From assembly GCF_031458235.1 (NCBI RefSeq), contig NZ_JAVDYB010000001.1, positions 4,113,001 to 4,177,000 on the forward strand: DNA of 64,000 bases. Direction: 5' to 3'. Below, piece after piece: positions 27,020 to 64,000 of the stretch (positions are counted from its first letter, which is position 1; each line of letters starts with the position of its first letter). Under the pieces are notes generated by a model. It saw only the letters and a program-made list of their open reading frames with translations, searched no databases and was not told the DNA's origin. The position numbers were made by a program, and so were the translations under genes. The DNA is from Catenuloplanes atrovinosus (GTDB lineage: Bacteria > Actinomycetota > Actinomycetes > Mycobacteriales > Micromonosporaceae).

Positions 27020-28114
27020 TCAGCGACCGGCCGGGGCCGTCTCGGCGCGGGTGACGTGCCAGCCGGCCGCGTCCAGCGCCGCCACCGCGGAGCCGGCCGC
27101 GGCGGGCGGGACCTCCAGGTGGACGACCAACTCGTCCTCGGCGTGCGGCAGCGGTTCGGCCCGGTCCGCGGTGACGCCGTGCGGCGCCGCCGCGCGGAGC
27201 AGGCGGCCCAGCGCGCCCGGCTCCCGGCCGAGCACCACCCGCAGCCGGTCCGGCACCTGGGCCGGCCGGGTGCGGACCGCGCCGGCCGCGCCCCGCTCCA
27301 GCACGTCGGTGATCGTGCGCAGCGCGCGCTCGCGCCCGTCCGGGCCGGTCCCGTCCAGGGCGTCGACCGCGGCCGACAGGCGGGCGAGGTCGTCACGCAC
27401 GTCGCGCAGCACGGCCGCGATCGCGGGCGCGTTCGCGTGGACGATGCCGGTCCACAGCGCCGGGTCACCGGCCGCGATGCGGGTGACGTCCCGCGCCCCC
27501 TGGCCGATCAGCGCGTCCGTGCCGGCCGGCGCGTCCCGCAGGCGGGCCGCGGTCAGGCTCGCCATCAGGTGCGGCACGTGCGAGGTGACCGCCACCATGG
27601 CGTCGTGCGCGCGGCTGTCCAGCCGGACCGGCACCGCGCCGCACAGCACGGCCAGTGCGGTGGCGTCGTCCAGCGCCGCGGCGCCGGTCCGTCCGGAGGG
27701 GGTGAGCACCCAGGTCCGGCCGGCGAAGAGGTCCGCCGTGGCGGCCAGCGGGCCGGACCGCTCCCGGCCGGCCATCGGGTGGCCGCCGACGTACGCGACC
27801 GGGTCGGGCGCCAGCCGCAGCGCGTCGCGCTCCGGCCCCGCCTTGACGCCGGCCACGTCGGTGTAGCTGCGCGCCGACCGCCGGTGCTGCGCGTCGCGCA
27901 GCACCGGGCCGACGTGGGCGGGCGGCACCGCGATCAGTGCCAGGTCCACCGGGTGCCGGGGCGGCTCGGCCAGGCCCGCGCCGAGCGACTCGGCCACCCG
28001 GGCGGCCGTGACGTCGCGGTCGGCGAGGAAGACGGTCACCCCGGCGCGCCGGGCGGCCAGCGCCACCGAGGTGCCGATCAGCCCGGTGCCGATCACCAGC
28101 AGGCTGCGTACCAT
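27020..28114 (-). CDS. tyrA: Prephenate dehydrogenase for hydroxyphenylglycine supply
   Basis: A 364-residue protein from ATG 28114. The N-terminal Rossmann fold is VIGTGLIGTSVALAARRAGV; GHPMAGRERSGP near residue 110 is typical of prephenate dehydrogenases. It converts prephenate to 4-hydroxyphenylpyruvate, the substrate of HmaS, whose gene ends one base upstream of this start region. Glycopeptide clusters commonly carry such a dedicated copy (Pdh). It is last in the rightward-to-leftward run hpgT-cm-hmaS-tyrA. The C-terminal 90 residues contain an ACT-like regulatory region (LRVVLGREPGALGRLLRAAA). Confidence 0.9.
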   Translation of the reverse strand: MVRSLLVIGTGLIGTSVALAARRAGVTVFLADRDVTAARVAESLGAGLAEPPRHPVDLALIAVPPAHVGPVLRDAQHRRSARSYTDVAGVKAGPERDALRLAPDPVAYVGGHPMAGRERSGPLAATADLFAGRTWVLTPSGRTGAAALDDATALAVLCGAVPVRLDSRAHDAMVAVTSHVPHLMASLTAARLRDAPAGTDALIGQGARDVTRIAAGDPALWTGIVHANAPAIAAVLRDVRDDLARLSAAVDALDGTGPDGRERALRTITDVLERGAAGAVRTRPAQVPDRLRVVLGREPGALGRLLRAAAPHGVTADRAEPLPHAEDELVVHLEVPPAAAGSAVAALDAAGWHVTRAETAPAGR

Positions 28115-28115
28115 C

Positions 28116-29177
28116 TCAGGCCTGCGCCGCGGCCTGCTCGCGCTCGACCGCCTCGTACAGCGCCTTGATGTTGTTGGTGCCGAAGGTGCGCGCGCCGCGC
28201 CGCTCGATCAGCTCGTAGAACAGCGTGCGCTTCGGGTGGGTGGACGCCGTGAAGATCTGGAGCATCACGCCGGCGTAGTCGCGGTCCGCGAGGATGTTCA
28301 GCTCGCGCAGCCGCTCCACCGGCACGCCGACCGAGCCGAGCCGCCCGGGCAGCGCCTCGTAGTACTCCCCCGGCGTGGTGAGGAACGGCACGCCCTGGTC
28401 CGCGCAGGTGCGCACGCCGGACACGATGTCCTCGGTACGGAACGCGACGTGCTGCACGCCCGCGCCGTCGTGCGCCTCGATGAACGCGTCGATCTGCCCG
28501 GGGTCACGGCTGAGGTCCGGCTCGATGATGGTGAACGTGACGCCGCGGGACGCGCTCTGCACCACCTTGGACCGCATCGCCTGCTTGCCGACGATGATCT
28601 GCTCCTCGAACGTCTGCTCGAAGTCGAAGACGTCCCGGTAGCGGCGGATGGCGGGGTCCAGCTCACCGGCGGGCAGGCACACCGCCAGGTGGTCCACCTC
28701 CAGCAGCAGGCCGCCGGCCGGTCGCGGCTGCTCCGCGATGAGGCCCGGCGCGAACGGCCCGGCCGGGTCGCGGCGCGAGGTGAAGCGGTGCTCGACGTCG
28801 CCGAAGCCGTCCACCGAGGCGAACGTGACCGGCCCGCCCTCGCCGTCGGGCGTGCTGGGCGGCCCGAGCGGCGCCGCGCCGCGCGCGACCGCCTCGGCGA
28901 ACGCCGCGGCCGCGTCCTCGACCGCGAAGCCGACCGCGGCGATGCCCTCGCCGTGCCGGGCGAGGTAGTCGTGACCGCGGTGGCCGGCGGCCAGCGGCGT
29001 GGTCACCAGCAGCGTGATGTCGTGTTGGCGGAGCAGGATGGAGAGCGCGTCGGCCCGACCGGTGTCCGGGCCGCCGCGGCCGTGGACGGCGAAGCCGAAG
29101 CCGGTGCACAGCCGCGCCGCCGTCTCCTCCGCGTCCTCGCTGAAGATTTCCAGATGGTCGATCGTACGGATGTCCAT
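28116..29177 (-). CDS. hmaS: 4-hydroxymandelate synthase
   Basis: A 353-residue protein. The start at ATG 29177 is set by GGGAGCGGAG just upstream and by MDIRTIDHLEIFSED, the usual N-terminus. It belongs to the VOC/HPPD family; iron ligands are expected in VDHLAVCLP, VQHVAFRTEDI and FYELIERRG. It converts 4-hydroxyphenylpyruvate plus oxygen to 4-hydroxymandelate, the first dedicated step to 4-hydroxyphenylglycine. HmaS and HPPD are close; cluster context with HmO and HpgT decides for HmaS. One base separates its stop from the tyrA start. Confidence 0.92.
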   Translation of the reverse strand: MDIRTIDHLEIFSEDAEETAARLCTGFGFAVHGRGGPDTGRADALSILLRQHDITLLVTTPLAAGHRGHDYLARHGEGIAAVGFAVEDAAAAFAEAVARGAAPLGPPSTPDGEGGPVTFASVDGFGDVEHRFTSRRDPAGPFAPGLIAEQPRPAGGLLLEVDHLAVCLPAGELDPAIRRYRDVFDFEQTFEEQIIVGKQAMRSKVVQSASRGVTFTIIEPDLSRDPGQIDAFIEAHDGAGVQHVAFRTEDIVSGVRTCADQGVPFLTTPGEYYEALPGRLGSVGVPVERLRELNILADRDYAGVMLQIFTASTHPKRTLFYELIERRGARTFGTNNIKALYEAVEREQAAAQA

Positions 29178-29194
29178 GTCTCCGCTCCCTGGCG

Positions 29195-29557
29195 TCATTG
29201 CTCGAGGTCCGGGCGCAGCGCTTCGGCACCGCCCAGGTAGACGTGCCGGATCTCGGTCCGGCCGCGGTCCACGTCGACGTGCGCGAGCAGGCGCACCACC
29301 CGGGGCATCGCGCCCGGTACGGCGATCTCGCTCGCGCACAGCAGCGGCACGTCGTCGAGCCCGGCCTTGCGTGCGGCCTTGGCCGGGAACTCGGCGGTCA
29401 GGTCCGGCGTCGTGGTGAACAGCACGCTGACCACGTCGGTGCTGGTCAGCTCGTTGCGGGTCATGATCTCGGTGACCAGCTCGACGGTGGCCTCCATGAT
29501 CCGGGACCGGTCGTCGGCGGACACCTGGACGGCTCCCCGGATGGCGTGCACCGTCAT
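29195..29557 (-). CDS. AroH-type chorismate mutase
   Basis: A 120-residue protein. ATG 29557 is chosen because MTVHAIRGA aligns with the start of Bacillus AroH (MMIRGIRGA); an ATG three codons earlier (29566) is possible. Active-site residues of the AroH fold are visible: Arg in AIRGA, PLLCASE (Cys and Glu), Arg in PRVVRLL, HVYLGGA (Tyr) and ALRPDL (Arg). It makes prephenate from chorismate, directly upstream of TyrA. The trimeric AroH fold is less common in actinomycetes than the AroQ fold. It lies between hpgT (31 bp) and hmaS (17 bp) on the same strand, so it belongs to the antibiotic operon. Confidence 0.88.
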   Translation of the reverse strand: MTVHAIRGAVQVSADDRSRIMEATVELVTEIMTRNELTSTDVVSVLFTTTPDLTAEFPAKAARKAGLDDVPLLCASEIAVPGAMPRVVRLLAHVDVDRGRTEIRHVYLGGAEALRPDLEQ

Positions 29558-29588: not shown

Positions 29589-30905
29589 TCATGCGTGCGC
29601 CTCTCGTCGGGTCTCCGCGTCGATGAACGCGACCAGGCGGGTGATGCCCTCGTCGATCTCCTCGGGCGACAGGTAGCTGACCGAGAGCCGGATGGCCCGG
29701 CGTCCGCCGTCGTCCGGGTGGAAGTAGCGCATCGGCGTCCAGATCACGCCGTACTCCTCCGCGGACCGGGTGAGCGCCGCCTCGTCCGCCTCGAACCCGA
29801 CCGTCACGCCGAGGAAGAAGCCGCCGGTCGGCTCGTTCCACCGCACGCCCAGCTCGGCGCGGCGCTGCGGGGGCAGCCGGTCGGCGAGCCGGTCGAGCAC
29901 CCACCGCATGGCGTCGCCGTAGTGGCCGGCCGCCTTGGCGTTCAGCTCGGAGACCCGGCCACCGGCCGCGAGCAGCGCGCCGGCCACCACGGCCTGGCTC
30001 AGCGACGAGGTGTTGACCGTCACCATGCTTTTGATCTTCGACAGCTCGTCGGCCAGCAGCCCGGTCCGGCCGTCGTCGCCCACCACGGTCTGGTCGGCCA
30101 CGGCGAAGCCCACCCGCGCGCCGGGGAACAGCGTCTTCGAGTACGACCCGAGGTGCACCACCGCGCGGTGCCGGTCCAGCGCCTTCAGCGTCGGCACCGG
30201 CGCGCCCGGGCTGACCAGCCGGTACGGCGAGTCCTCCAGGATCAGCAGGTCCTCGCGCGCGGCCAGGTCCAGCAGCGCGGCGCGGTCCGCGAGCGACAGC
30301 GTGGACCCGGACGGGTTGGCGTGGTCGGGCACCAGGTAGAACGCGCGCGGCCGGCGCCCGGCGGCCCGCTGATCCCGGATCGCCGCCTCCAGGATGGACA
30401 GCGAGAACCCCGCCGCCGACTCCGGCACCGGGCAGAGCGTGACGTCCAGCAGCCGGGCGATCCCGGTGATGCCCACGTAGCAGGGGCTGGAGACGAGCAG
30501 CACGTCGTCCGGGTCCCGGATCAGCGCGCGGACGGCGAGCATCATCGCCTCCTGCGCGCCGACCGTGACCACGATGGACTCGGGCCGCACGTCGATGCCC
30601 TCGTCCCGGCGCAGCGAGTCGGCGATGATCTCGCGGATCTGGCCGGCGGTCGGGCCGTACTGGTAGACCGCCGTGCGCACCTGCTCGGGCGAGGCGCCCC
30701 GTTCCGCGAGGTGGTCGAGATAGCGGCGGAGGTGGGTGAGCACCTCTTCGGTCTCGAAGAATCCGTCGTACGGGCGGCCCGGCGCGAATGAGATCGCCTC
30801 GGGATAGCGCAGGGTCACCTCGTTGAGGAAGTTCATCGTGTCCAGAACCGGGTCGGAAACGCTGGAATGCAATTCCGACTTACGTAGCACGGATGATCCC
30901 ACCAC
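29589..30905 (-). CDS. hpgT: 4-hydroxyphenylglycine aminotransferase
   Basis: A 438-residue protein starting at GTG 30905 (or the adjacent GTG 30902), with CGGGAG 5 to 8 bases upstream. Fold-type I PLP aminotransferase: DHANPSG near the middle and the PLP lysine in LGSYSKTLFPGARVGF. HpgT converts 4-hydroxyphenylglyoxylate to 4-hydroxyphenylglycine, and often also acts in dihydroxyphenylglycine formation; here no second aminotransferase of this type is seen, so it probably serves both. It is first in the hpgT-cm-hmaS-tyrA run. A StrR-like half-site lies 74 bp upstream at 30979. Confidence 0.92.
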   Translation of the reverse strand: MVGSSVLRKSELHSSVSDPVLDTMNFLNEVTLRYPEAISFAPGRPYDGFFETEEVLTHLRRYLDHLAERGASPEQVRTAVYQYGPTAGQIREIIADSLRRDEGIDVRPESIVVTVGAQEAMMLAVRALIRDPDDVLLVSSPCYVGITGIARLLDVTLCPVPESAAGFSLSILEAAIRDQRAAGRRPRAFYLVPDHANPSGSTLSLADRAALLDLAAREDLLILEDSPYRLVSPGAPVPTLKALDRHRAVVHLGSYSKTLFPGARVGFAVADQTVVGDDGRTGLLADELSKIKSMVTVNTSSLSQAVVAGALLAAGGRVSELNAKAAGHYGDAMRWVLDRLADRLPPQRRAELGVRWNEPTGGFFLGVTVGFEADEAALTRSAEEYGVIWTPMRYFHPDDGGRRAIRLSVSYLSPEEIDEGITRLVAFIDAETRREAHA

Positions 30906-30978: not shown

Positions 30979-31009
30979 GTCCAACCGACTGTCAGGCCGG
31001 TTCTCCGGC
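30979..31009. promoter_or_regulatory. Imperfect StrR-type site before hpgT
   Basis: GTCCAACCG at 30979-30987 is followed, after a 10-base gap, by CGGTTCTCC, matching CGGTTGGAC at six of nine positions. It overlaps the stop of the antiporter gene and lies about 74 bp before the hpgT start, a suitable operator position. Confidence 0.5.
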
Positions 31010-32347
31010 GCTGGACGGGGACGGCCGGGCGGGGACGCCGGCCCACGTGTCGTGGTCGATCTTCCGCAGCCGCTCGTCCTCGTTCTCCGTGATGCGCGCG
31101 CAGGTGTAGCGCAGCAGCGGCGGCGCCATCACCGACGTGACGATCGCGACCAGCACGACGATCGTGTAGCCGGCGGTGTTCAGGATGCCCAGCCGCAGGC
31201 CGGTGAGCGCCACCACCACCTCCACCACGCCCCGGGAGTTCATGCCCGCGCCGATCGCCAGGCCCTCCCAGCGGCTGAGCCGGCTGAGGCGGGCGCCCGC
31301 GTACGCCCCGGCGAACTTGCCGAGGATCGCCACCGCCAGCACCACCACCGCGGCGAGCGCCACCCGGGGCTCGGCCAGCGCGGTCAGGTCCATCCGGAAC
31401 CCGGCCGTGGCCAGGAACAGCGGCGCCAGCACGGTGAGCACGACGGTGCGCAGCGCGGCCAGCTTCGCCTGGTTCGCCGCCCGCGGCAGCCCGACCAGGA
31501 TGCCGGCCACGAACGCGCCGAAGACCGGCTCCATGTGCAGCGCCTGGGTCATCGCGGCGCCGGTCAGGACGATGACGACCGCGGTGACGATGCTGGGGCC
31601 GGGTCCCTCGGCGCGGTCGGCCAGCCGCATCGCCCGGCGCACCAGCGGCCGGCCGGCCAGCACGGCGAGGGCGACGAAGCCGAGCAGGTAGCCGATCGCC
31701 TGGAACACGTGCCCGGCGGCCAGCCCGACCGTGGCGGCCATCGACACCACCGACAGCAGGAACCAGCCGACCGCGTCGTCGATCGTGCCGGCCGCCATGG
31801 TCAGCTGGCCGATGTCGCGGTGCAGCAGCCGCATGTCGGAGAGCGTCTTGGCGATCACCGGGATGGCCGTCACGCACATCGCCACGGCGATGAAGCCGGC
31901 GAACAGCGTCCGGTCCGCCACCGGTGCGCCGCTGATCCAGTCGGCCAGCAGATAGCCGACGCCGAGGCCGAGCACCAGCGGGATGAGCAGGCCGCCCAGG
32001 CTGATCCGCGCGGCGGTGGCCTTGCGCCGCCGTACCATCGCGACGTCCAGGTGGGTGCCGGTGAGCCCGACCAGCAGCAGGATGCCGAGCTGGCCGACCG
32101 CGTCCAGCAGGTTCATCTGCTGCGCGGCGGACGGGAAGATCCAGCCGGTCAGGCCGGGCAGCAGGTGGCCGAGCAGCGACGGCCCCAGGATGACGCCGGT
32201 GGCCAGCTCGCCCACGATGGCCGGCATGCCGACCCGTTCCGCGAGGCTGGCGAGGAGCCGGGCGACCAGCAACAGCGTCACCACGGCGACCAGGAACACG
32301 AGCAACTGATGGCCGCCGAGCGACGGGGGCGGCGCGGTGAACGTCAT
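30992..32347 (-). CDS. Cation:proton antiporter (CPA2/KefB type)
   Basis: A 451-residue integral membrane protein from ATG 32347 with SD GAGGAG. About 12 to 13 hydrophobic segments span residues 12-425. Typical motifs are GELATGVILGPSLLG, the AGTIDDAVGWFLL region with Asp-Asp, and GMNSRGVVEVVVALTGLRLGIL near the end. Such antiporters are a recurring accessory gene in glycopeptide clusters, perhaps helping ion balance or export, though their role is not proven. It lies between dpgB and hpgT on the same strand. Confidence 0.9.
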   Translation of the reverse strand: MTFTAPPPSLGGHQLLVFLVAVVTLLLVARLLASLAERVGMPAIVGELATGVILGPSLLGHLLPGLTGWIFPSAAQQMNLLDAVGQLGILLLVGLTGTHLDVAMVRRRKATAARISLGGLLIPLVLGLGVGYLLADWISGAPVADRTLFAGFIAVAMCVTAIPVIAKTLSDMRLLHRDIGQLTMAAGTIDDAVGWFLLSVVSMAATVGLAAGHVFQAIGYLLGFVALAVLAGRPLVRRAMRLADRAEGPGPSIVTAVVIVLTGAAMTQALHMEPVFGAFVAGILVGLPRAANQAKLAALRTVVLTVLAPLFLATAGFRMDLTALAEPRVALAAVVVLAVAILGKFAGAYAGARLSRLSRWEGLAIGAGMNSRGVVEVVVALTGLRLGILNTAGYTIVVLVAIVTSVMAPPLLRYTCARITENEDERLRKIDHDTWAGVPARPSPSSAGEPA

Positions 32348-32416
32348 CGGACGGCTCTCCTCGGATAGATCGGGCACCTGCCGGCCCTCCACCGGGTCCG
32401 GACCGCCGGCCCGCCC

Positions 32417-32443
32417 GTCCAACCGATCAACCGGCCGGCGGAC
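32417..32443. promoter_or_regulatory. Imperfect StrR-type site before the antiporter gene
   Basis: GTCCAACCG at 32417-32425 is followed after 10 bases by CGGCGGAC (32436-32443), one base short of CGGCTGGAC. It lies 70 bp upstream of the antiporter start in the 165-bp gap after dpgB. Confidence 0.5.
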
Positions 32444-32512: not shown

Positions 32513-33178
32513 TTACGACGCGGCCGCCCGCCGCAGGGTGCGGTCGCAGGCGGCCAGGTGGGCGCCGAGTGCCTCGTCGAAGCTCTGCTGGCCGGCCTCG
32601 AGCATCAGCTGACGCCGGATCGCCACTTCGCTGCCCGGCATCGCCGCGGCGGCGGCCGCGACCTCGGCCAGCGCGCCGCCCGGCTCCTCGGTGACCACAT
32701 CGATCAGGCCCGCGGACGCGGCCGCCTCGGCCTCGATCGGCGTGCCGAGCAGCGCCGCACGGCGCAGCCCGCGGGCACCGCCCTGCCGGGCCAGCCGGTA
32801 CAGCGCCATGCCCGGCCAGGTCGCGTCACCACCGACCGGCACGACCAGGCGCGCGCCCGCGGCCGCGATCCGCACGTCGGCGGCGAGCAGCACGTCCAGC
32901 GCGATGCCGCCGCAGTCGCCCGCGGCAACCGCGACGGTCGTCAGGCCGAGCCGCTCCAGCCGGCGAACCGTCCGCTCCCATTTGGTCACCAGCCCGACAT
33001 CGAGCGTACGCGTCCACCCGGGCAGCGGAGCCCCGGACGCGTACACCACCAGGACTCCCGCGCCGAAATCGTCCTCGGCGCGGTCGCACAGCCGCTGCAC
33101 CGCCTCGACCTCGGCGGCCGACGGCGGCCGGCTCCCGTCCACGCGCAGCACCAGGTCGTCGACGCCCGCCGCGGTCAC
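32513..33178 (-). CDS. dpgB: DpgB, crotonase-like accessory enzyme for 3,5-dihydroxyphenylacetyl-CoA
   Basis: A 221-residue protein starting at GTG 33178, overlapping the dpgA stop as GTGA. It is a short enoyl-CoA hydratase-like protein: GDCGGIALDVLLAADVRIAA and a later GLIDVVTEE. DpgB assists the type III polyketide synthase DpgA and, with DpgD, promotes dehydration/aromatisation of the tetraketide to 3,5-dihydroxyphenylacetyl-CoA. Translational coupling and order dpgA-dpgB match other glycopeptide clusters, but dpgC and dpgD lie 5 kb away on the other side of the luxR and hmO genes. Confidence 0.9.
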   Translation of the reverse strand: MTAAGVDDLVLRVDGSRPPSAAEVEAVQRLCDRAEDDFGAGVLVVYASGAPLPGWTRTLDVGLVTKWERTVRRLERLGLTTVAVAAGDCGGIALDVLLAADVRIAAAGARLVVPVGGDATWPGMALYRLARQGGARGLRRAALLGTPIEAEAAASAGLIDVVTEEPGGALAEVAAAAAAMPGSEVAIRRQLMLEAGQQSFDEALGAHLAACDRTLRRAAAS

Positions 33179-34269
33179 CACTGGACCAGCGCCATCTCGA
33201 TGGTGGAGCCCGGGCCCATGGTCATCAGCACGCCGTAGTCGCCGGGCTCGGTGACGCCCTCCTCGGCCAGCCGCTCGTAGGAGAACAGGAACGAGCCGCT
33301 GGAGAGGTTGCCGTGGTCGCGCAGGACGCCGACGGTGTGCCGCACGTCGTGCCGGCTCAGGCCCAGGTTCACCACGACCGCGTCGATCACCTTCTTGCCG
33401 CCGGAGTGCACCAGCCAGTGCGCGATGTCGCTGCGGCGCAGGCCCGTGCCGGCGAGCAGGCGGTCGATCACGGTCTCCGCGTTCGCGCCCACCACGTACG
33501 GGATCTGCGGGTCGAGGAAGAAGCTGAACCGGCCGAGGTCGCTGTCCCAGTCGTAGCGCATCGCCTCGATCGCCTCGGTGATCAGGAAGCTGGCGAACTT
33601 GAGGATGCGCGGTCCCGGCCGGGGCTCGCCGGCGCCGTCGCTGATCAGCGCCACGGCCGCGGCGCCGTCGCCGAACAGGCTGTTGACCACGGCGGTACGC
33701 ATGCTGCCGTCCAGCGCGTAGGCGGCCGAGCACGCCTCGGTGCAGAGCACGACGCCCAGCTCACCCGGGTGCGCCGCGGACCATCCGGCGACCACGTTGA
33801 GCGCGTTGAGACCGGCGTTGCAGCCCATGCCCACGATGTCGGCGCGGCTGCAGTGCGGGTCGATGCCGAGGTCCTTGATGATCCGCGCGCTCAGCCCGGG
33901 GGTGAGGAAGCCGGTCGACGTGACGCAGCACAGGTGCCGCAGGTCGGACAGCGAGGCGCCGACGTCCTTCAGGCAGTTCTGCAGCGCCTGGCCGCCCATC
34001 TCGATCGCCAGGCGCTCGTGCTTGGCCAGCAGCTCGCCCTGCGGCTCCGGCCGGCGGCGCCCGTCCGCGTCCGGCTCCGGCAGCGTGAGGTGGCGGGCGG
34101 CGATGGCGCTGTTCAGATAGACGGACCGCACCTTCGGGTCGTCGATGCCGAGCACGTCGAGCAGCTCGGTCTGGGAGATCGGCGTGCCGGTCGTCGCGGT
34201 GCCCACTCCGACCATTCGGGAAATCGCCGGCGCCAGCGTTCCGGCGGGACGTTCGAGGGTGACCGTCAT
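33175..34269 (-). CDS. dpgA: DpgA, type III polyketide synthase
   Basis: A 364-residue protein. ATG 34269 is preferred because it overlaps the stop of a short leader ORF (ATGA) and gives a normal N-terminus; an in-frame GTG at 34287 is possible. The catalytic Cys is in VGMGCNAGLN (C150); the partner His is in WLVHSGGKKV and Asn in RDHGNLSSGS. DpgA condenses malonyl-CoA units to the C8 precursor of 3,5-dihydroxyphenylacetyl-CoA, for residues 3 and 7 of the peptide. It is coupled downstream to dpgB. A StrR-type half-site lies about 80 bp before the leader. Confidence 0.93.
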   Translation of the reverse strand: MTVTLERPAGTLAPAISRMVGVGTATTGTPISQTELLDVLGIDDPKVRSVYLNSAIAARHLTLPEPDADGRRRPEPQGELLAKHERLAIEMGGQALQNCLKDVGASLSDLRHLCCVTSTGFLTPGLSARIIKDLGIDPHCSRADIVGMGCNAGLNALNVVAGWSAAHPGELGVVLCTEACSAAYALDGSMRTAVVNSLFGDGAAAVALISDGAGEPRPGPRILKFASFLITEAIEAMRYDWDSDLGRFSFFLDPQIPYVVGANAETVIDRLLAGTGLRRSDIAHWLVHSGGKKVIDAVVVNLGLSRHDVRHTVGVLRDHGNLSSGSFLFSYERLAEEGVTEPGDYGVLMTMGPGSTIEMALVQW

Positions 34270-38670: not shown

Positions 38671-41683
<3,013 letters not shown>

Positions 41684-50331: not shown

Positions 50332-50342
50332 GGCGGGCCGGC

Positions 50343-51913: not shown

Positions 51914-52750
51914 TCAATGGTCATAACCGAACCGGGCGGCCAGCGCCGCGAATTCGGACCCGTCCCGCAACCGTTCCCGGTAGGCGTCCTCGATGTCCTG
52001 ACCCATGAAGGCGAGCGACTGGCCCTGCTTCCCCTCGCCGATGAACGAGAATGCGTTCCCCGGCTCTTTCCCGGCCCATCTCGTCACCGGCGGCGGTTTC
52101 CGGCCCGCCTTGTCCTTCTTCTCCATCTCGCGCATGCGGTCGATCGTGCTGCCGTCCACCGCGAGCTGGATGTCCCGATCCCGGACGGGCCGGCCGAGCT
52201 CCAAAAATTTGACGATCTCGGTGAACTCGCCGACCGGATCGCCGCGCATGTCCTCGTACCGTACCGTCAGAATCTCGATGTCCGGAAAACTCCGCCGGAC
52301 GATGTCGGGCGAGCTCCACGCCTTCAGATTCTCGGTCCACGATCCGATTCCGATGCGGCCGCGATCGGCGAAGAAACTCTCGTGCGCGATAAAGCCCTCG
52401 GCGATCCGCCGGCACGCCGCCGTGTCGTCCCGGGAGATGTGCATCATCCGCAGGCTGCTGAGCAGCACGTCCCGCGGGTTCCGGACGATGTAGACCGCCT
52501 TGCGCGACAGGTCACGGTAGAGGCGCAGCAGGGGGACGTCGGGCAGGAAGTGGGTCTTGACGAGGTACGAACCGTCGTCGTCCCACGGCGGCACGCCGCC
52601 CTCCGCGATCATCGGATGGATGTCGGGGATCAGCTGTTGCAGACCTCGGAGACTCTCGGCCGGAGCACCACCGATGTAGGCCGTCAGCATGCTGCGCAGC
52701 CAGGTGTTGCCGGACTTGGGGTAGCTGGCGATCCAGGAGATCCGGGTCAT
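51914..52750 (-). CDS. PAPS-dependent glycopeptide sulfotransferase (StaL-like)
   Basis: A 278-residue protein from ATG 52750 with SD AAGGAG. PAPS-binding motifs: SYPKSGNTWLR (5'-phosphosulfate loop, residues 9-19) and VYIVRNPRDVLLSSLR (3'-phosphate). It resembles StaL of A47934, which sulfates the N-terminal hydroxyphenylglycine. Third codon positions include many A/T (for example AAA TTT TTG, AAT, GGA, AGT), unlike the almost fully G/C third positions of its neighbours. It sits between oxyB and the halogenase with larger gaps (95 and 39 bp) than the rest of the operon. Both facts suggest a later insertion. Confidence 0.92.
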   Translation of the reverse strand: MTRISWIASYPKSGNTWLRSMLTAYIGGAPAESLRGLQQLIPDIHPMIAEGGVPPWDDDGSYLVKTHFLPDVPLLRLYRDLSRKAVYIVRNPRDVLLSSLRMMHISRDDTAACRRIAEGFIAHESFFADRGRIGIGSWTENLKAWSSPDIVRRSFPDIEILTVRYEDMRGDPVGEFTEIVKFLELGRPVRDRDIQLAVDGSTIDRMREMEKKDKAGRKPPPVTRWAGKEPGNAFSFIGEGKQGQSLAFMGQDIEDAYRERLRDGSEFAALAARFGYDH

Positions 52751-55151: not shown

Positions 55152-56327
55152 TCACCAGTCGAGCAGCAGGGCTTCCACGTCGAACGGCGGCGGCCCCAGC
55201 CTGATCTCGCGGTCCGGCTCGGCCAGCCGCAGCGTGGGAAAGCGGTGTGCCAGCGCCGGGATCGCGGTCCGGAACACCAGCTCGGCCATGGAGCGGCCGA
55301 GGCAGTGATGGATGCCGTGCCCGAACGCGACATGCTCCACCCGGTCCCGGGTCAGGTCGAAGTCGTCCGCCGGGTCCGGGAAGTCGCGGCGGTTCGCGGC
55401 CAGCAGCGAGCAGGTGACGGCGTCGCCGGCCCTGATGAGGTGGTCGCCGATCCGCACGTCCGACATCGCGACGCGCGGATGGGTCTTCTCGTCCGTGGTG
55501 AGGTACCGGATCAGCTCGTCCAGCCAGTCCGGCACGGCCTCCGGCTTCTCCCGCAGCAGCGTGAACTGCCCGGGGTGCAGCGCCATCAGCCACGCGCCCG
55601 CGGCCAGGAACCGGGCCACCTGGTCCGCGCCCGCGCCCATCACGAACGCGGCCACGCCGGTCAGCTCCGCGTCGGTGATCTCGTCGCCGTACTCGCGGAC
55701 CACGACGCCGAACATGTCGTCGCCGGGATCGCGGCGGGCGCGCGCCGCCACCTTGTTCATGTAGGTCATGTACTTGTTCCCGGCCGCGACCCGCCGCTTG
55801 TCCGACCGGTCGGTCCGGCTGGCGTGCAGGCAGCGCGCCAGATCGGCCTGGTCGTCCCGGGGGATGCCGAGGAAGTCGCAGGTCGCGGTGGTCGCCACCG
55901 CCCAGCCGAAGCGCGGTACGAAGTCCACCGGCCCGCCGATCGCCTCGATCGCGTCCAGGCTGTCCTCGACGATCCGCTCCACCTGCGGCTGGAACCTCTG
56001 CATGCGCCGGACCGCGAACGCCGGCGCGACCATCCGGCGCAGCCGCGTATGCTCCGGCGGGTCGTAGTGGGTCAGGAAGCCGGGCCAGGCCAGGCCGGCC
56101 GCGGTACCGCCGTAGAGCAGCCGGGCGCTGAATTCGGCGCCGCCGAGCACGCGGCGGACCTCGTCGTACCCGGTGGCGAGCCACGCGGTCCGGCCACCCG
56201 GCTGCTCCTCCGCGCCCAGCACGGTCAGCGGGCCCTCGGCCATCAGCTCGCGGAGCTGCGGCACCGGGTCGAAGCCGTCCCGCCGGTGCAGCTCCGAGGC
56301 GCGGCTGACGTTGATCTTCTCGAACAC
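55152..56327 (-). CDS. oxyA: OxyA, cytochrome P450 for the D-O-E ring (residues 2-4)
   Basis: A 391-residue protein from GTG 56327 (AAAGGA 9 bases upstream). It begins with FEKINVSRASELHRRD, and the middle (FVMGAGADQVARFLAAGAWLM) and the C-terminus (FDVEALLLDW) match OxyA proteins closely; heme site FGHGIHHCLGR. It makes the second diaryl ether, residues 2 and 4. A StrR-type dyad 20 bp upstream (56347-56375) suggests its own promoter, so the oxy/halogenase operon may start here. Confidence 0.92.
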   Translation of the reverse strand: MFEKINVSRASELHRRDGFDPVPQLRELMAEGPLTVLGAEEQPGGRTAWLATGYDEVRRVLGGAEFSARLLYGGTAAGLAWPGFLTHYDPPEHTRLRRMVAPAFAVRRMQRFQPQVERIVEDSLDAIEAIGGPVDFVPRFGWAVATTATCDFLGIPRDDQADLARCLHASRTDRSDKRRVAAGNKYMTYMNKVAARARRDPGDDMFGVVVREYGDEITDAELTGVAAFVMGAGADQVARFLAAGAWLMALHPGQFTLLREKPEAVPDWLDELIRYLTTDEKTHPRVAMSDVRIGDHLIRAGDAVTCSLLAANRRDFPDPADDFDLTRDRVEHVAFGHGIHHCLGRSMAELVFRTAIPALAHRFPTLRLAEPDREIRLGPPPFDVEALLLDW

Positions 56328-56383: not shown

Positions 56384-56593
56384 TCAGGCGCCGACCTGCT
56401 CGATCAGGCTCTTGGGCCGCAGGTCCGTCCAGTTCTCCTCGACGTAGGCCAGGCACTCCCGCCGGGTGGCCTCGCCGTACACGCGGGTCCAGCCGGCCGG
56501 CACCTCCGCGAACGCGGGCCAGAGGGAGTGCTGGCCCTCGTCGTTGACCAGGACGAGGAAGGAGCCGTCTTCGTTGTCGAACGGATTGGTCAT
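56384..56593 (-). CDS. MbtH-like NRPS adenylation-domain partner
   Basis: A 69-residue protein from ATG 56593 with SD GGGAGAGG. Conserved signature: [19 protein letters not shown] with SLWPAF, then [17 protein letters not shown]. MbtH proteins bind and stabilise adenylation domains of the peptide synthetases; in glycopeptide clusters they also support tyrosine-loading modules. It lies 64 bp downstream of the ABC transporter gene on the same strand. Confidence 0.95.
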
Positions 56594-56657: not shown

Positions 56658-58631
56658 TCATCCGCCTCCGCCGCGCACCACGTAGTGCACCGGCTCGGGC
56701 TCGTCGTCGTAGAGTTCCGCCGCGTCCGCCGCCGGGGCCTCGGGCTCGGCGGTGCCGCCCGGCCGCGCGAACTGCGTGTGGTAGAGCACCGCGTAGAGAC
56801 CGTTCCGGGCGAGCAGTTCCTCGTGCGTGCCGCGCTCCCGCACCCGTCCCTCGTCGATGACCAGGATCTGGTCCGCCTCGCGGATGGTGGACAGCCGGTG
56901 GGCGATCACCAGTGAGGTGCGGTTGTGCAGCGCGGTCTTGAGCGCGCGCTGGACCGCGGCCTCCGACTCGGAGTCCAGGTGCGCGGTGGCCTCGTCCAGC
57001 ACGACCACCGTGGGCGCCTTCAGCAGCAGCCGCGCGATGGCCAGGCGCTGCTTCTCGCCGCCCGACATGCGGTAGCCGCGATCGCCGGTGACGGTGTCGA
57101 GCCCGTTCGGCAGCGACCTGATCAGGTCCCAGATCTGGGCCGCCCGGCACGCCTCGATCAGGTCGTCCTCGGTGGCGGTCGGCCGGGCGTAGAGCAGGTT
57201 CTCCCGGATCGTGTCGTGGAAGAGGTACGCGTCCTGGCTGACCACGCCCACGGTCTCGCGCAGCGAGTCGAACGTGAGGTCGCGCAGGTCGTGCCCGCCG
57301 ACGCGGACGGTGCCGGAGTTCGGGTCGTACAGCCGGGACACCAGGTGGGTGAGCGTGCTCTTCCCGGCTCCGGACGGGCCGACGAGCGCGGTCATGCTGC
57401 CGGCCGGTACGTGCAGGGTCACCCCGCGCAGCACGTCCTGCATCGATTCCGCGCGCTCACGCCCGGCCCGCACGTGCTCCAGCGACGGCAGCGAGACCTC
57501 GTCCGCGGTGGGGTAGCGGAACGAGACGTTCTCGAACTCGACGTCCGGCACCACGTTCCTGGGCAGCGCGACCGCGCCCGGGCGCTCCTTGATCAGCGGC
57601 TCGAGGTCGAGCAGCTCGAACGTGCGGGAGAAGCTCACCACCACGGTCTGCGCGGTCTTCTGCAGTCCGGAGAGCTGGACGATCGGGCCGAACAGCCGCC
57701 CGAGCAGCGTGGCGATGGCGACCAGCGCGCCGAGTGCGATCGCGCCGTCGAGCACCAGCGCGCCGCCGATGCCGTAGACCAGCGCGGTGGCCAGCGAGGC
57801 CATCAGGCCCATCATGACGAAGGCGAGCCGGCCCCACACCGCGATGCTGACACCGATCCGGCGGATGTGCTCGGCCCGCCGGGTGTACTCGGCCATCTCC
57901 TCGTCCGGGCGGCCGAACAGCTTGGCGAGCATCGCGCCCTGCACGTTGAGCCGCTCCTGGAGCTGCCCGCCCAGGCCGGCGTTCGCCTCCATCTGCCGGC
58001 CGGTGCGCCGCTGGATCACCTTTCCCACGTAGATCCACGGCACGATGAAGATCGGGATGATCACCAGCGTGATGACGGCGACGAACCACGACAGGTAGAA
58101 CATCTCGGCCAGCACCAGCAGCACCGTGAGCGCGCTGGTGGCCGCCATCAGCAGGTAGCCGAACTCCTGCTGCGCCATGATCAGTTCGGTGTGGACGCGG
58201 CCGACCAGCACGCCGGTCTGGGTTCGGGTGAAGAACGCCACCGGCATCCGCCGGACGTGGTCGAGCGCCTGGATGCGCAGGTCGTAGGTGACCCCCTCGC
58301 CGATCCGCCCGGAGATGTACGCGGACACCAGTTGCAGCGCGGCGCCGACCACGGCGAGCCCGGCGGCCAGGCCGGCGGTCCTCGCCACGAGCCCGAGGTC
58401 GTTCTTCAGAATGCCGTCGTCGACCAATTGCATCAGCAGCAGCGGAATGGCGACCACGATGAGCGAATCCAGCGTCGCGACGACGGCGAATATCGCCACC
58501 TTGCCGATGTGCGGGCGAAAATAGCCGAGCACTCTGCGCACCGTTCCCGGGCGGACCGAGGTCTGCCAGGGGTCCGGATCATCATCGCTTCGATGGGGTT
58601 CCCCGCCGAATTGCATCACTACCTGTGACAC
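56658..58631 (-). CDS. ABC exporter (fused TMD-NBD) for the antibiotic
   Basis: A 657-residue protein. GTG 58631 is preferred because AGGGGAA lies 5 bases upstream; ATG 58616 is possible. Six membrane helices (about 40-340), then an NBD with Walker [10 protein letters not shown], signature MSGGEKQR and Walker [14 protein letters not shown]. It is the half-size, homodimeric exporter type found in all glycopeptide clusters (Tba/StaU-like) and should export the mature compound. It lies between a glycosyltransferase gene and mbtH. Confidence 0.92.
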
Positions 58632-58708: not shown

Positions 58709-59863
58709 TCACGCCACCATTTCCGGCGCGTTCCGGCCGATCGCCTCGCACAGCCGGCGCGCGGCCACGTCCGTACCGTCGGTGCGGACGGTGCCGGCCA
58801 CCGCGGCCGCCCGGGCGCGGACCTCCGGCGCGGCCACCGCGTCGAGCGCGCCGGACAGCGACTCGACGGTGGGGACCGGGCCCGGGTGCGCCACGCCGAT
58901 CCCGAGTTCGGCGACCCGCTCGGCGTACCGCGGCTGATCCGCGATCTGGGGCACCACGATCTGGGGTACGCCGGCCAGCGTGGCCACGTGCGTCGTGCCC
59001 GTGCCGCCGTGGTGGACGGCGACCGCCACCCGGCCGAACAGCGCCCGCAGGTTCACCTCGCCGATCGCGAGGCAGTCGTCCCCGTCGCCGGGCTGCGTCA
59101 GGCCGGCCCACCCGCGGGAGATGATCAGCCGCCCGCCCCGCGCCCGGACCGCCGCCACGGCCACCCGCGTCACTTCGGCGGGCGCCGGCCCGCTGCCGAA
59201 ACCGAGGTACACCGGGGGCGGACCGGCCCGCAGGAACGCCTCCAGCGCGGGCGCCAGCGGCCGCTCGTCGGGCAGCATCCACGCACCGGTCGGCGCCGCG
59301 CCGGCGCCCGGCCGCGGCGGCGCCAGCACCGGGTCCGCGGCCAGCCACGGCCGGTCGGTGCAGTAGTAGTCGTAGACGTTCCGCACCGGCGGCAGGCCGA
59401 TCGACGCGCGCCGCTCGTTGAGCGGGCCGCCGAACATCCGGTCGGCACCCCGGTTGTACGACTCGCGCTGCTCCGGCGTGGGCAGCAGGTACGGCGAGGC
59501 GATCGCGTAGAAGTACCGGATGCCCAGCTTCTCGGCCACCGACCGGACCGCTGCCGCGCCGGACGGCAGGCCGCTGGCCACGATCGCGTCGCAGCCCTCG
59601 GCCACCGCCGGCACCGTGTCGAACCGCTCGGCGAGCCGCGCGGCCACCAGCTCGGGCTCCGGTCCCCGGCCGGCCTCGCGCGGCCCGTCCAGCATCGAGC
59701 GGTCGGCCAGCACGAGCGGCACCCCGGTCTCGGCCAGCCGCTCCGCGAAGTTCGACGGCGCGCACATCCGCGCGTCCGCCCCGAGTGCCCGCAGCCGCGC
59801 GGCCAGCGCCACCAGCGGTTCGACGTCGCCGCGCGGCCCGCGCGACCAGAACAGGACTCGCAT
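58709..59863 (-). CDS. Glycopeptide glycosyltransferase 1 (GT-B, Gtf family)
   Basis: A 384-residue protein from ATG 59863 with SD GAGGAGAG. N-terminal acceptor domain begins [21 protein letters not shown], as in GtfA-E; the C-terminal donor domain has YLGFGSGPAP and VHHGGTGTTHVATLAGVPQIVVP. It transfers an activated sugar to a hydroxyl of the peptide aglycone; which position and sugar cannot be told. Preceded by a StrR-type dyad 23 bp upstream. It is followed (78 bp) by the ABC exporter gene. A little shorter than typical (about 390-408). Confidence 0.88.
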   Translation of the reverse strand: MRVLFWSRGPRGDVEPLVALAARLRALGADARMCAPSNFAERLAETGVPLVLADRSMLDGPREAGRGPEPELVAARLAERFDTVPAVAEGCDAIVASGLPSGAAAVRSVAEKLGIRYFYAIASPYLLPTPEQRESYNRGADRMFGGPLNERRASIGLPPVRNVYDYYCTDRPWLAADPVLAPPRPGAGAAPTGAWMLPDERPLAPALEAFLRAGPPPVYLGFGSGPAPAEVTRVAVAAVRARGGRLIISRGWAGLTQPGDGDDCLAIGEVNLRALFGRVAVAVHHGGTGTTHVATLAGVPQIVVPQIADQPRYAERVAELGIGVAHPGPVPTVESLSGALDAVAAPEVRARAAAVAGTVRTDGTDVAARRLCEAIGRNAPEMVA

Positions 59864-59915: not shown

Positions 59916-59922
59916 GGCGGTC

Positions 59923-61341
59923 CTAGGACAGCCGCACGGCGCCGGCGTTCACGCAGGACAGCAGCGTGCGCGCCTGGACGTTGAGGTAGTGGCCGTGGCC
60001 GGCCAGGTCGCCGAGCTGGCCGGCGGTGGCCCACTGGAAGCCGGGCGGCGGTTGCGCCCCGACCTCGTCCGCGGTGACGTCGACCAACAGGTACCGGTTC
60101 TCCGCGTTGAGGAACCGACCGCCCTCCTCGGAGTGCGTCGCCGCGTAGCGAATCCGCTCGGGCGGCGCCGCCAGCACCAGGTCCAGGAACGGTGGGCGGT
60201 GTTGCGCGGGCAGGTGCAGCCAGTTGGCCGGGTCGCACTGCACGGTCGGGGCCAGCTCCACCGTGTCCAGGAACCCGGCCTCCGGCTTCGCCTGGACCAG
60301 CAGATGCGGTACGCCGCCGATGTTCCGGACCAGGAACGCGGTGACCCCCTTGCCGGTCGGCTCGATCAGCGGCTGCGACCAGCTCGGCACCTCCCGGCTG
60401 CTCGCCTCCACCGCGACCGCCACCACCCGGAAGTAGCGGCCGTCCGGCCGGTGGATCGACCACGCGCCGCGCTCCCAGCCCGCGATCCCGGCCAGCGGCC
60501 GGCGCTCGGCCACCGCGTTCCACCGGGACCGCTCGACGGTGAACCAGGATCGCAGCTCCGCGTCGGTGTGCAGCGCGCCCGACTCCGGGACGGCCATCGG
60601 CAGGCAGGCGATGACCGTGCGCGCGTCCATGTTGACCACGTTGTCCAGCCGCAGCAGCTCGCCGATCTGGCCGAGCGTGAGCCAGCAGAAGTCCTCGTGC
60701 GGCACCACCTCGCCGACCGCCTCGACCAGCATGTTGCGGTTGGACTTGCGGTAGAACCAGGAGCCGTGCTCGGACTGGAGCACGTCGGTGAGCACCCGGC
60801 CGCGGCCCGCGCCGGCGAAGTGCTCCAGGTAGCGCACGCCGGCGCCGCGGTGCACGCCGGTGTAGTTGCTGCGGGTGGCCTGCACGGTCGGCGAGAGCTG
60901 GAGCCGGTTCGGGTTGCCCGGCTCCATCTTGGCCTGGAGCAGGAAGTGCAGGACGCCGTCGAACTCCTTCACCAGGATGCCCAGGATGCCGACCTCCGGC
61001 TGGCGGATGATCGGCTGCTCCCAGTTGCGGATCAGGCCCTCGCCGAGCGTGACGGACAGCCCCTCGACGCTGAAGAATCGGCCGGTGCGGTGCACCAGGT
61101 CGCCCGTACCCGGCGCGAACGACCAGCCGTCCAGGTCGGCGAACGGTATCCGGTCGACCCGGAACCGGTGCGCCCGGGCCCGGTCGGCGAACCACGGCGG
61201 GAAGTCCTCGGTCCGCATCATGTGGCCGTGCCCGGTCTGCTCCGCCGAGCGCCGCAGCCGGTGCGGCAGCGCGTCGTCGACGCGGGGGCGCAGGCCGGCG
61301 GGCGCGGTCAGCACGGCCGGGCGCGAGTTCACCGCCGTCAC
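59923..61341 (-). CDS. NDP-4-keto-6-deoxyhexose 2,3-dehydratase (EvaA-like)
   Basis: A 472-residue protein from GTG 61341, overlapping the aminotransferase stop as GTGA. Two internally similar halves are visible: [37 protein letters not shown] and later [32 protein letters not shown], each cited by its core, a known feature of this Nudix-like dehydratase family. It removes the C-2 hydroxyl of NDP-4-keto-6-deoxyglucose, opening the 2,6-dideoxy-3-aminosugar (vancosamine/epivancosamine-type) route. It is coupled to the aminotransferase gene. Later steps (methyltransferase, epimerase, ketoreductase) are not in the window. Confidence 0.93.
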
Positions 61342-62459
61342 AGCGTCTCCAGGACGGTACGGAGCGCGTCGATGACCCGGTCCTGCACGGACTCGGGCAG
61401 CGACGGGTACATCGGCAGCGAGAAGATCTCGCCGGCCAGCGCCTCGGTGACCGGCAGCGAGCCCGGCCGGTAGCCGAGGTGGGCGAAGCCGCTCATCGTG
61501 TGCACCGGCCACGGGTAGCTGATGTTCAGCGCGATGTCGTGACGCGTGAGCGCCTCGAGGATCTCGTCGCGGCGGGGGTGGCGGACCACGTACACGTAGT
61601 AGACGTGGGTGTTGCCGGGGGCGGTGGCCGGCAGCCGGAGCCCGTCCGGCGCGACGAGGTCGCCGAGGCGTTCCTCGTACCGGCGGGCGACCGCGTTGCG
61701 CCCGGCGATGTACTCGTCCAGCCGGCGCAGCTTCCGCCGCAGGATCTCGGCCTGGACCTCGTCCAGCCGGGCGTTGTGACCCGGCGTGCGCACGACGTAG
61801 TAGACCTTGTCCATGCCGTAGTAGCGCAGTTGCTTGAGGTCGCGGTCCACCCGCTCGTCCGCGGTCAGGACCGCACCGCCGTCGCCGTACGCGCCGAGCA
61901 CCTTGGTCGGATAGAACGAGAACGCCGCGGCGTCGCCCATGGTCCCGGCCAGCCGCCCGTGCCGGCGCGCGCCGTGCGCCTGCGCGCAGTCCTCCAGGAT
62001 CTTGAGCCCGTGCCGCTCGGCCAGCGCGGTCAGCGGCGCCATGTCGACGCACTGACCGTAGAGATGCACCGGGACGACGGCCCTGGTCCGTGGCGTGATC
62101 GCGGCGGCGACCCGGTCGACGTCCATCAGGAAGTCCTCGGCGCGCACGTCCACGAAGACCGGCGTCGCCCCGGCTCCGGCGATCGCCACCACGGTCGGCG
62201 CCGCCGTGTTCGACACGGTGATCACCTCGTCGCCGGGCCCGACGCCCAGCGCCTCGAGGCCGAGCTTCACCGCGTTGGTCCCGTTGTCCACGCCGGTGGC
62301 GTGGCCGAGCCCGTGGTACGCGGCGAACTCCGCCTCGAACCCGCGGACGCTCTCGCCGAGCACCAACTGCCCGGAGCCGAAAACCGTCTGCACCGCGTCG
62401 AGGATGTCGTCCTTCTCCTTGGCGTACTCCGGCAGGTAATCCCATACACGAGTGGTCAC
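61338..62459 (-). CDS. NDP-sugar 3-aminotransferase (DegT/DnrJ/EryC1, EvaB-like)
   Basis: A 373-residue protein from ATG 62459. PLP-dependent sugar aminotransferase: [27 protein letters not shown], and the PLP lysine in [17 protein letters not shown]. With the 2,3-dehydratase it installs the 3-amino group of a dideoxyaminosugar. Strong match to EvaB-type proteins; the exact sugar depends on genes beyond the edge. Overlaps the 2,3-dehydratase gene by four bases. Confidence 0.92.
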
Positions 62460-62495
62460 TGGGCTGGCTCCCGATCGTCGAAGGGCGGTCTGACC

Positions 62496-63707
62496 TCACA
62501 CGGCGGCGGCGGGCCTCTCCCGGCTGACCGTGTCGAGCAACTGGCGCGCGACCGTCGCGGCGGCGTCGTCGCGGATCGTGGCCGCGACCGCGGCCGCCCG
62601 CGCCCGTGTCCCGGGCGCCAGCGCCGTGGTGAGCGCGGCCGACAGTGACTCGCGGGTGGGGTCCGGGCCGTCGTGGGCCACGCCGGCGCCCAGCGCGGCC
62701 ACCCGCTCGGCGAAGTACGGCTGGTCCGTGTCCCGGGGGATCACGATCTGCGGGCTGCCGGCGCGGGTGGCCACGGTGGTCGTGCCCGCGCTGCCGTGGT
62801 GGACGACCGCGGCCACCCGGCCGAACAGCACCTGCAGGTTGGTCTCCTCGACGACCAGGCAGTCGGCGCCGTCGTCGGGCGCGGCGAGGTCGGCCCAGCC
62901 GCGGGACAGGATCACCCGCAGGCCGCGGGCCCGGATCGCCTCGATCGCCACGGTGGCGGCGTCGTCGGTGCCGGACTGGCTGCCGAACCCCACGTACACC
63001 GCGGGCGGGCCGGCCGCGAGGAACGCCTCCAGCTCCGCCGAGAGCGGCCGGTCGTCCGGCAGTATCCAGGCGCCGGTCTGCACCGCGTCCTGGCCGGGCC
63101 GCAGCGGTGCCAGGACCGGATCGGCCGCCATCCAGGGCCGGTCGGTGTGGCCGTACCCGAAGATGTCCGCCACCGGCGGCAGCCCGATCGCGGCCCGCCG
63201 ATCGTTGACCGGGCCGGCGAACCGGTCGCGGAACCGCTGCGCGCGCTGCTCCCACAGCACCCGGTTGTCGGTCACGCCGGGGGTACGCCGCTCGTCCAGC
63301 GGCGGCGGGTGGTGCGGCGACGGCAGGTAGACCGGTGCGTGGGTGGCGTAGAAGTACGGAATGCCGAGCCGCTCGGCGACCGACCGCACCGCGACCGCGG
63401 CGGACAGCTCCCCGGTCGTCACCACCGCGTCGCAGCCCTCGGCCGCCGGCGGTACCTGGTCGAACTGCATGGCGACGGCCTCGTACGCCATCCGCCGCTC
63501 CTCCTCGGGCGTCGGCCGCCGGCGCAGCATCATGCGCATCGCCCGGCCGATCGGCACCAGCGGCACGTCCACCTCGGCCAGCCGCTCGGCGGCCAGCGGC
63601 GGCGCGCACATCAGCACCTCCGCGCCCAGCTCTCGCAGCCGCACGCCCAGCGCCACCAGCGGTTCCACGTCGCCGCGGCTTCCGCAGGTGGTCAGCAGCA
63701 CACGCAT
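62496..63707 (-). CDS. Glycopeptide glycosyltransferase 2 (GT-B, Gtf family)
   Basis: A 403-residue protein from ATG 63707 with SD AAGAGGAGG. Begins [21 protein letters not shown], typical of GtfA/B/C/E; donor domain has [12 protein letters not shown] and [24 protein letters not shown]. Full length for the family. The GSAG variant near the active His differs from the GGTG of glycosyltransferase 1, as among GtfA/B/C. It lies 36 bp upstream of the aminotransferase gene and 58 bp downstream of a third glycosyltransferase gene. Confidence 0.9.
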
Positions 63708-63765
63708 CTCGTACCTCCTCTTCAACGGGGCCCGGCGCGTTCCCGCGCCCTCCGGCGCGGACGGC

Positions 63766-64000
63766 TCAGGCGGGGACGGCGGACTCGGCCACGTCGAGCA
63801 GCAGCCGCGCGGCCACCGTGGCCCCGTCGGCGCGGATCGTGCCGGCCACGGCGGCGGCACGCTCGCGGGTCCGCGGGCTCAGTGCCGTCGCGAGCGCGGC
63901 CGACAGCGACTCGACGGTCGGGGTCGGGCCGTCGTGCGCCGCGCCGATGCCCAGCGCCGCCACCCGGCCCGCGAGGTACGGCTGGTCCACCAGCTGCGGC
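63766..64000 (-). CDS. Glycopeptide glycosyltransferase 3 (5' part outside window)
   Basis: Only the last 77 residues are inside the window. They read [22 protein letters not shown] and [33 protein letters not shown], the C-terminal end of a GtfA/B-like GT-B enzyme, closely similar to glycosyltransferase 2. It indicates a tandem family of three glycosyltransferases reading leftwards from beyond the right edge. Confidence 0.85.

Follow-up and report, generated by a model that had tools for sequence, protein, structure and literature searches.

Which glycopeptide would be made by a gene cluster that combines a sulfotransferase gene with deoxyaminosugar genes? Such a cluster lies partly in a 64,000-base stretch of the Catenuloplanes atrovinosus genome (the window; positions 4113001-4177000 in 8.9 Mb of sequence that forms a single contig), for which an original prediction, made from the window alone, had proposed a sulfated and glycosylated four-ring glycopeptide. 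We joined the next 57 kb rightward to the window, giving 121 kb (coordinates above 64000 are those of this extended window), called genes by codon-position GC and named them through NCBIfam, Pfam and PDB sequence searches. The cluster is complete and covers about 74 kb, from 27020 to about 101260; its left end was placed at 27020 because neither of the two genes tested to the left of it, one for an IclR regulator and one unassigned, has a counterpart in the four comparator stretches described below. Its gene content makes it very probably a complete cluster for a type III glycopeptide (four rings, no acyl group) of the kind of UK-68,597, and UK-68,597 or a near analogue would be its most likely product.

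The four comparators were the glycopeptide clusters of the A40926 producer Nonomuraea gerenzanensis (97 kb), whose chromosome was found in searches of plasmid records, and of three family relatives, G069, G043 and G068 (120 kb each), the last two from another genus of the family. Profile and PDB searches recovered every gene that the original prediction had named, from precursor supply, MbtH and the oxy genes to the halogenases, exporter, Gtf and EvaA/B genes, and the order oxyA-oxyE-oxyB-sulfotransferase-halogenase-oxyC-halogenase-CmlA was found as it had been given. Further genes came to light, namely a second CmlA-like hydroxylase, a siderophore-interacting-protein-like reductase, a cation antiporter, and StrR-like and LAL regulators. 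Right of 64000, where the rest of the cluster had been expected, lie gtfB, evaC, evaD, rmlA, four intact nonribosomal peptide synthetase (NRPS) genes, 4.3 to 31.5 kb beyond the edge, and the van genes. Most cluster genes are on the minus strand, which holds for all cluster coordinates below unless stated; the plus strand carries Hmo, the second CmlA-like gene, EvaC, EvaD, the VanA-type ligase and the second VanR.

The four NRPS genes, NRPS-D, C, B and A (68273-95469; 1841, 4058, 1058 and 2077 aa), comprise seven modules with seven adenylation (A) domains, and each protein aligned to the G069 cluster over 100-101% of the query length. The nine-letter A-domain codes, read with comparators aligned alongside, agree fully with the A40926 codes at modules 2, 4, 5 and 7, whereas modules 1 and 6 each show a single-letter difference and module 3 shows two. 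The fourth-position letter in the modules for hydroxyphenylglycine (Hpg) and dihydroxyphenylglycine (Dpg) varies with the alignment, and the codes were therefore read through the comparison with A40926, not as letters. With A40926 residues that we take to be Hpg-Tyr-Dpg-Hpg-Hpg-Tyr-Dpg, the codes here point to the type Hpg-Tyr-Dpg-Hpg-Hpg-Tyr/Bht-Dpg, where Bht is beta-hydroxytyrosine. An MbtH-like protein is encoded at 56384..56593 (PF03621). Seven NRPS modules together with DpgA-D and HmaS/Hmo/HpgT supply would make the cluster one for a dalbaheptide, a lipid II-binding glycopeptide.

That the peptide belongs to the four-ring type, as originally proposed, is borne out by OxyE (1-3 ring; 53976..55130), a clear orthologue of the solved enzyme 3oo3 (695 bits; next class 366), which is accompanied by OxyA (2-4 ring; 55152..56327; 5hh3 783 bits, a second solved P450, 5ex8, 695, next class 360), OxyB (4-6 ring; 52790..53986; 4tx3 752 bits, next class 362) and OxyC (5-7 ring; 49099..50346; 1ued 650 bits, next class 405). 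OxyE orthologues (79-80%) were found in three other of 354 family genomes, all of one other genus, and in none of the four other genomes of the organism's own genus; eight more family genomes matched at E 1e-80 through other P450s (42-45%). An even draw of 394 genomes from the class contained 16 with a match, its own among them, the best other at 52%. A StaM/Dbv28-like beta-hydroxylase of the CmlA family (46240..47832; PF18456 256 bits) is 81-87% identical to its counterparts in the four comparators. A second CmlA-like di-iron hydroxylase (41854..43368, plus strand; PF18456) is 72% identical to a G043 protein and 56% to the first. Next to it lies a siderophore-interacting-protein-like FAD reductase (40880..41599; PF04954/PF08021) with a counterpart in G069 (63%) and none in the other three comparators; because of this position and this counterpart, it is a possible electron donor.

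Halogenation probably depends on one enzyme. Hal1, an FADH2-dependent halogenase (50343..51812), is 85-92% identical to one halogenase in each of the four comparators and keeps the motif WFWYIP. Hal2 (47835..49082) is a short paralogue, 61% identical to Hal1 and of 415 versus 489 aa, in which the C-terminal tail is missing and WFWYIP has become WFWYTQ; comparably short copies in G043 and G068, matched over 402 and 401 aa, retain the P of the motif. StaK is called inactive in the accessible part of one paper (PMC11727664), and by analogy Hal2 is probably not a chlorinase. We considered an extra chlorination by the second halogenase and judged it unlikely from the altered motif and tail.

The sulfotransferase gene (51914..52750; Teg14 258 bits, StaL 233 bits) had been predicted to be of the StaL type, and in a tree of 13 sequences its product indeed joined StaL, Teg12 and Teg14 with support 100/100, while nine sequences from five other family genomes all fell outside this clade. 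Identity is 45% to StaL and 46-47% to Teg12 and Teg14, and the tree places the enzyme on a branch of its own, apart from StaL and from Teg12/14. Its GC (0.655) and third-position GC (GC3, 0.87) are the lowest among the cluster genes compared. In G069, G043 and G068 the oxyB-hal1 junction measures 157 to 303 bases and is therefore too short to hold the gene; the simplest reading would be a later insertion as a single gene at the oxyB-halogenase junction. A search of 354 family genomes gave six matches at E 1e-20 or better, its own included, the best copies in the other five being 39-44% identical, and in 397 order genomes the match at E 1e-60 was confined to its own; this threshold would drop relatives at 39-44% too. 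A scan of genome contigs returned at least 80 loci with distant sulfotransferases, at most 37% identical among the matches listed, and is not evidence of rarity. Plasmid records, searched at both DNA and protein level, gave no match to the enzyme.

We examined whether the sites in the five family genomes might be glycopeptide clusters and rejected this, since no Dpg, Oxy or Eva gene was matched in the 20 kb covered at each (E 1e-20). Other NRPS genes stand beside the sulfotransferases at three of the five (L167, L168 and L169), the last of which further shows matches of VanR/VanS-like and halogenase-like type (30-48%); in the 20 kb of L165 NRPS genes were not found. Tandem pairs of StaL-related sulfotransferases, with the second copy altered in the first motif, occur at L165, L167, L168 and L169 (in genomes G320, G334, G104 and G331).

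Of the sugar genes, the window holds EvaA, an NDP-hexose 2,3-dehydratase (59923..61341; PF03559 515 bits; 82% to G068), and EvaB, a sugar aminotransferase (61338..62459) that falls below the cut-offs of aminotransferase models, is 86-88% identical to G068/G043 proteins and was named by context. Beyond the edge follow the C-methyltransferase EvaC (65320-66534, plus strand), the epimerase EvaD (66549-67151, plus strand) and RmlA (67203-68276). The presence of EvaC means that the sugar would be C-methylated, a trideoxy sugar of the vancosamine series, and the proposed combination of sulfation with deoxyaminosugars is thus supported at gene level.

All three predicted Gtf genes were found, the third mostly beyond the window edge. 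They encode a GtfA-type glycosyltransferase (residue 6 type; 58709..59863; GtfA chimaera 3h4i 484, GtfA 446, GtfB 430 bits), a GtfC/GtfD-type enzyme for the second sugar on glucose (62496..63725) and a GtfB-type glucosyltransferase whose gene crosses the edge at 64000 (63766-64974; GtfB 586 bits, next 488). These names come from PDB scores, which for the GtfC/D-type are a near tie between GtfB (546 bits) and GtfD (543 bits). In a tree with relatives, the three GT1 branches received support of 98/97 (GtfA-type), 99/98 (GtfB-type) and 100/98 (GtfC/D-type). At 384 aa the GtfA-type protein is short, and we considered the gene as a remnant; this was rejected, as it aligns over its full length with relatives.

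Among the four comparators, G069 and A40926 (dbv) have the NRPS code classes, four Oxy enzymes, Hal1 and Dpg/Hpg supply in common with the cluster here. Both carry an N-acyltransferase gene and G069 also a mannosyltransferase gene, and neither matches the sulfotransferase or Eva genes here; G069 is termed teicoplanin-like because these two gene types are present and Eva genes were not matched. G043 and G068 share with the cluster EvaA, EvaB, EvaD, the three Gtf branches, two CmlA-like genes and two halogenases; unlike it they have an EvaE candidate and mannosyl- and methyltransferase genes. The sulfotransferase, EvaC and RmlA had no match in the fetched stretches of all four comparators (tblastn, E 1e-15). 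In the opposite direction, 73 comparator genes had no match here or one below 40% identity. Ten of them were profile-scanned and include three mannosyltransferase, two N-acyltransferase and two methyltransferase genes, and these seven had no match in the 121 kb (E 1e-10). With the N-acyltransferases of G069 and N. gerenzanensis unmatched there, the cluster would not be of the acylated, teicoplanin-like type IV.

The closest known system is that of UK-68,597, which the original prediction had mentioned as a possible precedent. We presume that its cluster (auk, Actinoplanes sp. ATCC 53533) has a sulfotransferase of the StaL kind and that this is auk20; a count continued through the genes here would give the sulfotransferase number 20. 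In the gene list of a review, as far as its text was available, auk7 encodes RmlA, auk8 EvaD, auk9 EvaC, auk10 GtfB, auk11 GtfC, auk12 EvaB, auk13 EvaA and auk14 GtfA (PMC8987122), and the order rmlA-evaD-evaC-gtfB-gtfC-evaB-evaA-gtfA is the same here. The same part of the review describes auk as type III, with vancosaminyl-glucose at residue 4, with no evaE and with separate operons for evaD-C and evaA-B (PMC8987122); here evaC-evaD lies on the other strand from the remaining sugar genes, and an evaE orthologue was not found. UK-68,597 is described as sulfated (PMC8698665, available portion). On these partial sources it is a direct precedent, joining sulfation with vancosamine and having a sugar block equal to auk7-auk14, so that the combination of sulfate and aminosugar is not new. 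A second auk-like cluster was not found described in the literature searched, which is weak evidence, as the sources were partial and subscription papers lay mostly outside its coverage.

Several points weigh against this reading. The match to auk depends on taking the gene list of a single review as the order of the genes, and the two clusters were compared by description only. An evaE orthologue was not found in the organism's own genome, where the best match to the G068 EvaE candidate is 30-31%, as against 84% between the candidates of G068 and G043, both of which owe their name to position. The last sugar step here thus has no assigned EvaE, and the sugar may remain in its 4-oxo form. Five other genomes of the family carry related sulfotransferases (39-44%) away from any recognisable glycopeptide cluster. 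We only infer the site of sulfation, and strictly also the substrate, because the enzyme is just 45-47% identical to the characterised ones. No product is known from the strain.

Within the reading of a UK-68,597-kind cluster, a serious if minority possibility is that the product is a distinct, new four-ring glycopeptide with a sulfate, one that might carry 4-oxovancosamine, say, or a third sugar attached to residue 6. The full-length GtfA-type gene, the lack of an evaE orthologue in the genome, the separate sulfotransferase branch and a resistance set unlike that described for auk are all consistent with such a compound. Against it, auk is itself described, in the part of the review available, as having a GtfA orthologue and no evaE and yet only the vancosaminyl-glucose disaccharide (PMC8987122). 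More tentatively, the product could be an undescribed one in which the sulfate sits at a position that StaL or Teg12-14 do not set, the sugar is possibly a 4-oxo member of the vancosamine series, the GtfA-type enzyme adds a third sugar at residue 6, and the sulfotransferase branch was inserted once at the oxyB-halogenase junction.

The self-resistance genes bear on whether the cluster could be the published auk cluster itself and the genome that of the UK-68,597 producer. They comprise a VanA-type D-Ala-D-Lac ligase (95900-96943, plus strand; 611 bits, cut-off 550), VanS (96996-98090), a VanR that overlaps it (98047-98736), a second VanR 88% identical to the first (98927-99610, plus strand), VanX (99644-100261; 401 bits, cut-off 320) and VanH (100307-101257); two VanR-type regulators with one VanS suggest an apparent duplication within the module. 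Searched with A40926 VanY, the 121 kb contain no vanY homologue, while the same query has counterparts in G043 and G068 and none in G069; the genome's only PF02557 gene lies 2 Mb away. In the accessible portions of two papers auk has vanH, vanY, separate vanR and vanS and a Ddl-like ligase (PMC7325946, PMC8698665), in contrast to the VanA-type ligase that passes the D-Ala-D-Lac cut-off, the overlapping vanS-vanR, the second vanR, vanX-vanH and the missing vanY here. Identity with auk would be suggested by the equal order of the listed auk7-14 genes, by the sulfotransferase, which exceeds 44% identity in no other of the 354 family genomes, so that auk was not met elsewhere, and by the complete vanHAXRS set stated for the auk producer's genome in the available text (PMC8698665). 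With a non-contiguous vanR/vanS pair, a vanY and a Ddl-like ligase on the auk side, we consider the identity improbable.

Two genes near this subject were noted as such. A minus-strand epimerase-family gene beside vanH (101420-102370) is 35-37% identical to the EvaE candidates of G068/G043; it is a possible candidate for the missing sugar 4-ketoreductase, a role that we do not claim for it. A peptidase M15_3 with a peptidoglycan-binding domain is encoded at 3680-4429, 23 kb left of the cluster, and its Pfam family differs from that of VanY.

Two other systems with such sulfotransferases were compared. The TEG cluster from environmental DNA (Teg12/13/14) has sulfotransferases in the clade of the enzyme here; it has three (PMC11727664, available part) versus one here, which is 46-47% identical to Teg12 and Teg14. 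The A47934 cluster (sta, Streptomyces toyocaensis) has a StaL-family sulfotransferase and StaM- and StaK-like genes in common with the cluster; the comparison with it covered StaL and two solved P450s. We take A47934 to have a four-ring core and to be the subject of a review passage on a cluster without glycosyltransferases. That passage, available in part, gives sta no glycosyltransferase genes (PMC8987122, citing Pootoolal 2002), as opposed to three GT1 genes here and a sulfotransferase only 45% identical to StaL. An A47934-like cluster that gained sugar genes, to which the short second halogenase, the StaM-like hydroxylase and the StaL-type sulfotransferase might point, has little likelihood, given that G069, G043 and G068, none of which has a match to the sulfotransferase, share 72-92% identity with the cluster in their NRPS, Oxy and Hal1 proteins, that the junction in these relatives has no room for one, and that the sulfotransferase looks like the later addition because of its low identity to StaL and its lowest GC.

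On the preferred reading of a UK-68,597-kind cluster, four P450s would install the cross-links of a heptapeptide on the assembly line; its beta-hydroxylation would fall to the StaM-like enzyme and its chlorination to Hal1. GtfB would add glucose at residue 4, and GtfC/D would then add the vancosamine-series sugar to this glucose, while the sulfotransferase is predicted to move sulfate from 3'-phosphoadenosine-5'-phosphosulfate to a phenol of the aglycone. The product would be exported and bind D-Ala-D-Ala, the producer's own wall being rebuilt with D-Ala-D-Lac.

The left part of the cluster encodes mainly precursor supply. It begins with a prephenate dehydrogenase for tyrosine and 4-hydroxyphenylpyruvate (27020..28114; NF005112 335 bits, cut-off 294; 74-76% to the three relatives), a 4-hydroxymandelate synthase of the HPPD family (28116..29177; TIGR01263 333 bits, cut-off 277; 85% to G043), named HmaS over HPPD because of gene context, and a chorismate mutase (29195..29557; TIGR01796 150 bits, cut-off 82; 89% to G043). 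An aminotransferase for Hpg and Dpg (29589..30836; PLP aminotransferase families, none over cut-off among the matches listed; 87-89% to the three relatives) was named HpgT from its position and homology. The 4-hydroxymandelate oxidase Hmo (37466..38626, plus strand; 86% to G043) is below the cut-offs of the FMN-dependent 2-hydroxyacid oxidase family and was named by context. All four Dpg enzymes passed curated model cut-offs: DpgB (32513..33181; NF042431 297 bits, cut-off 140), DpgA (33175..34206; NF042429 625, cut-off 425), DpgD (38669..39466; NF042430 466, cut-off 400) and DpgC (39463..40764; NF042432 748, cut-off 530). A 3-deoxy-D-arabino-heptulosonate 7-phosphate (DAHP) synthase at 45012..46067 is above the cut-offs of NF006421 and TIGR01361.

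Regulation would involve a LAL/LuxR-type cluster regulator (34448..36724; AAA_16 and GerE; 59-75% to the three relatives) and a pathway regulator that we take to be of the StrR family (43437..44426; HTH_23 only; 79-85% to the three relatives). Transport genes are a StaN-like CPA2-type cation antiporter (30992..32422; TIGR00932 below cut-off; 78-84% to the three relatives) and an ABC exporter (56658..58532; ABC transporter models; 73-80% to the four comparators). Elsewhere, a transposase-like gene of the DDE_Tnp_ISAZ013 family lies far left of the cluster at 2452-3411, and a second large NRPS, a 5464-aa open frame containing several condensation domains, stands about 220 kb away (C1:4432810-4446165).

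Pairings of a glycopeptide sulfotransferase with deoxyaminosugar genes are, to our knowledge, rarer still than sulfotransferase genes in glycopeptide clusters in general. The latter are described as rare in the part of one paper available, which also reports several sulfotransferases in the A. bartoniae glycopeptide cluster (PMC11727664). The cluster of C. atrovinosus adds one more member to a kind that is known but rare, apparently with a resistance module of its own, ordinary in kind and rare in combination. It offers an independent set of tailoring enzymes for combinatorial work, comprising GtfA/B/C, EvaA-D and a sulfotransferase that shares 45-47% identity with those already known, and it makes the arrival of a sulfotransferase and the exchange of a resistance module comparable between close clusters.

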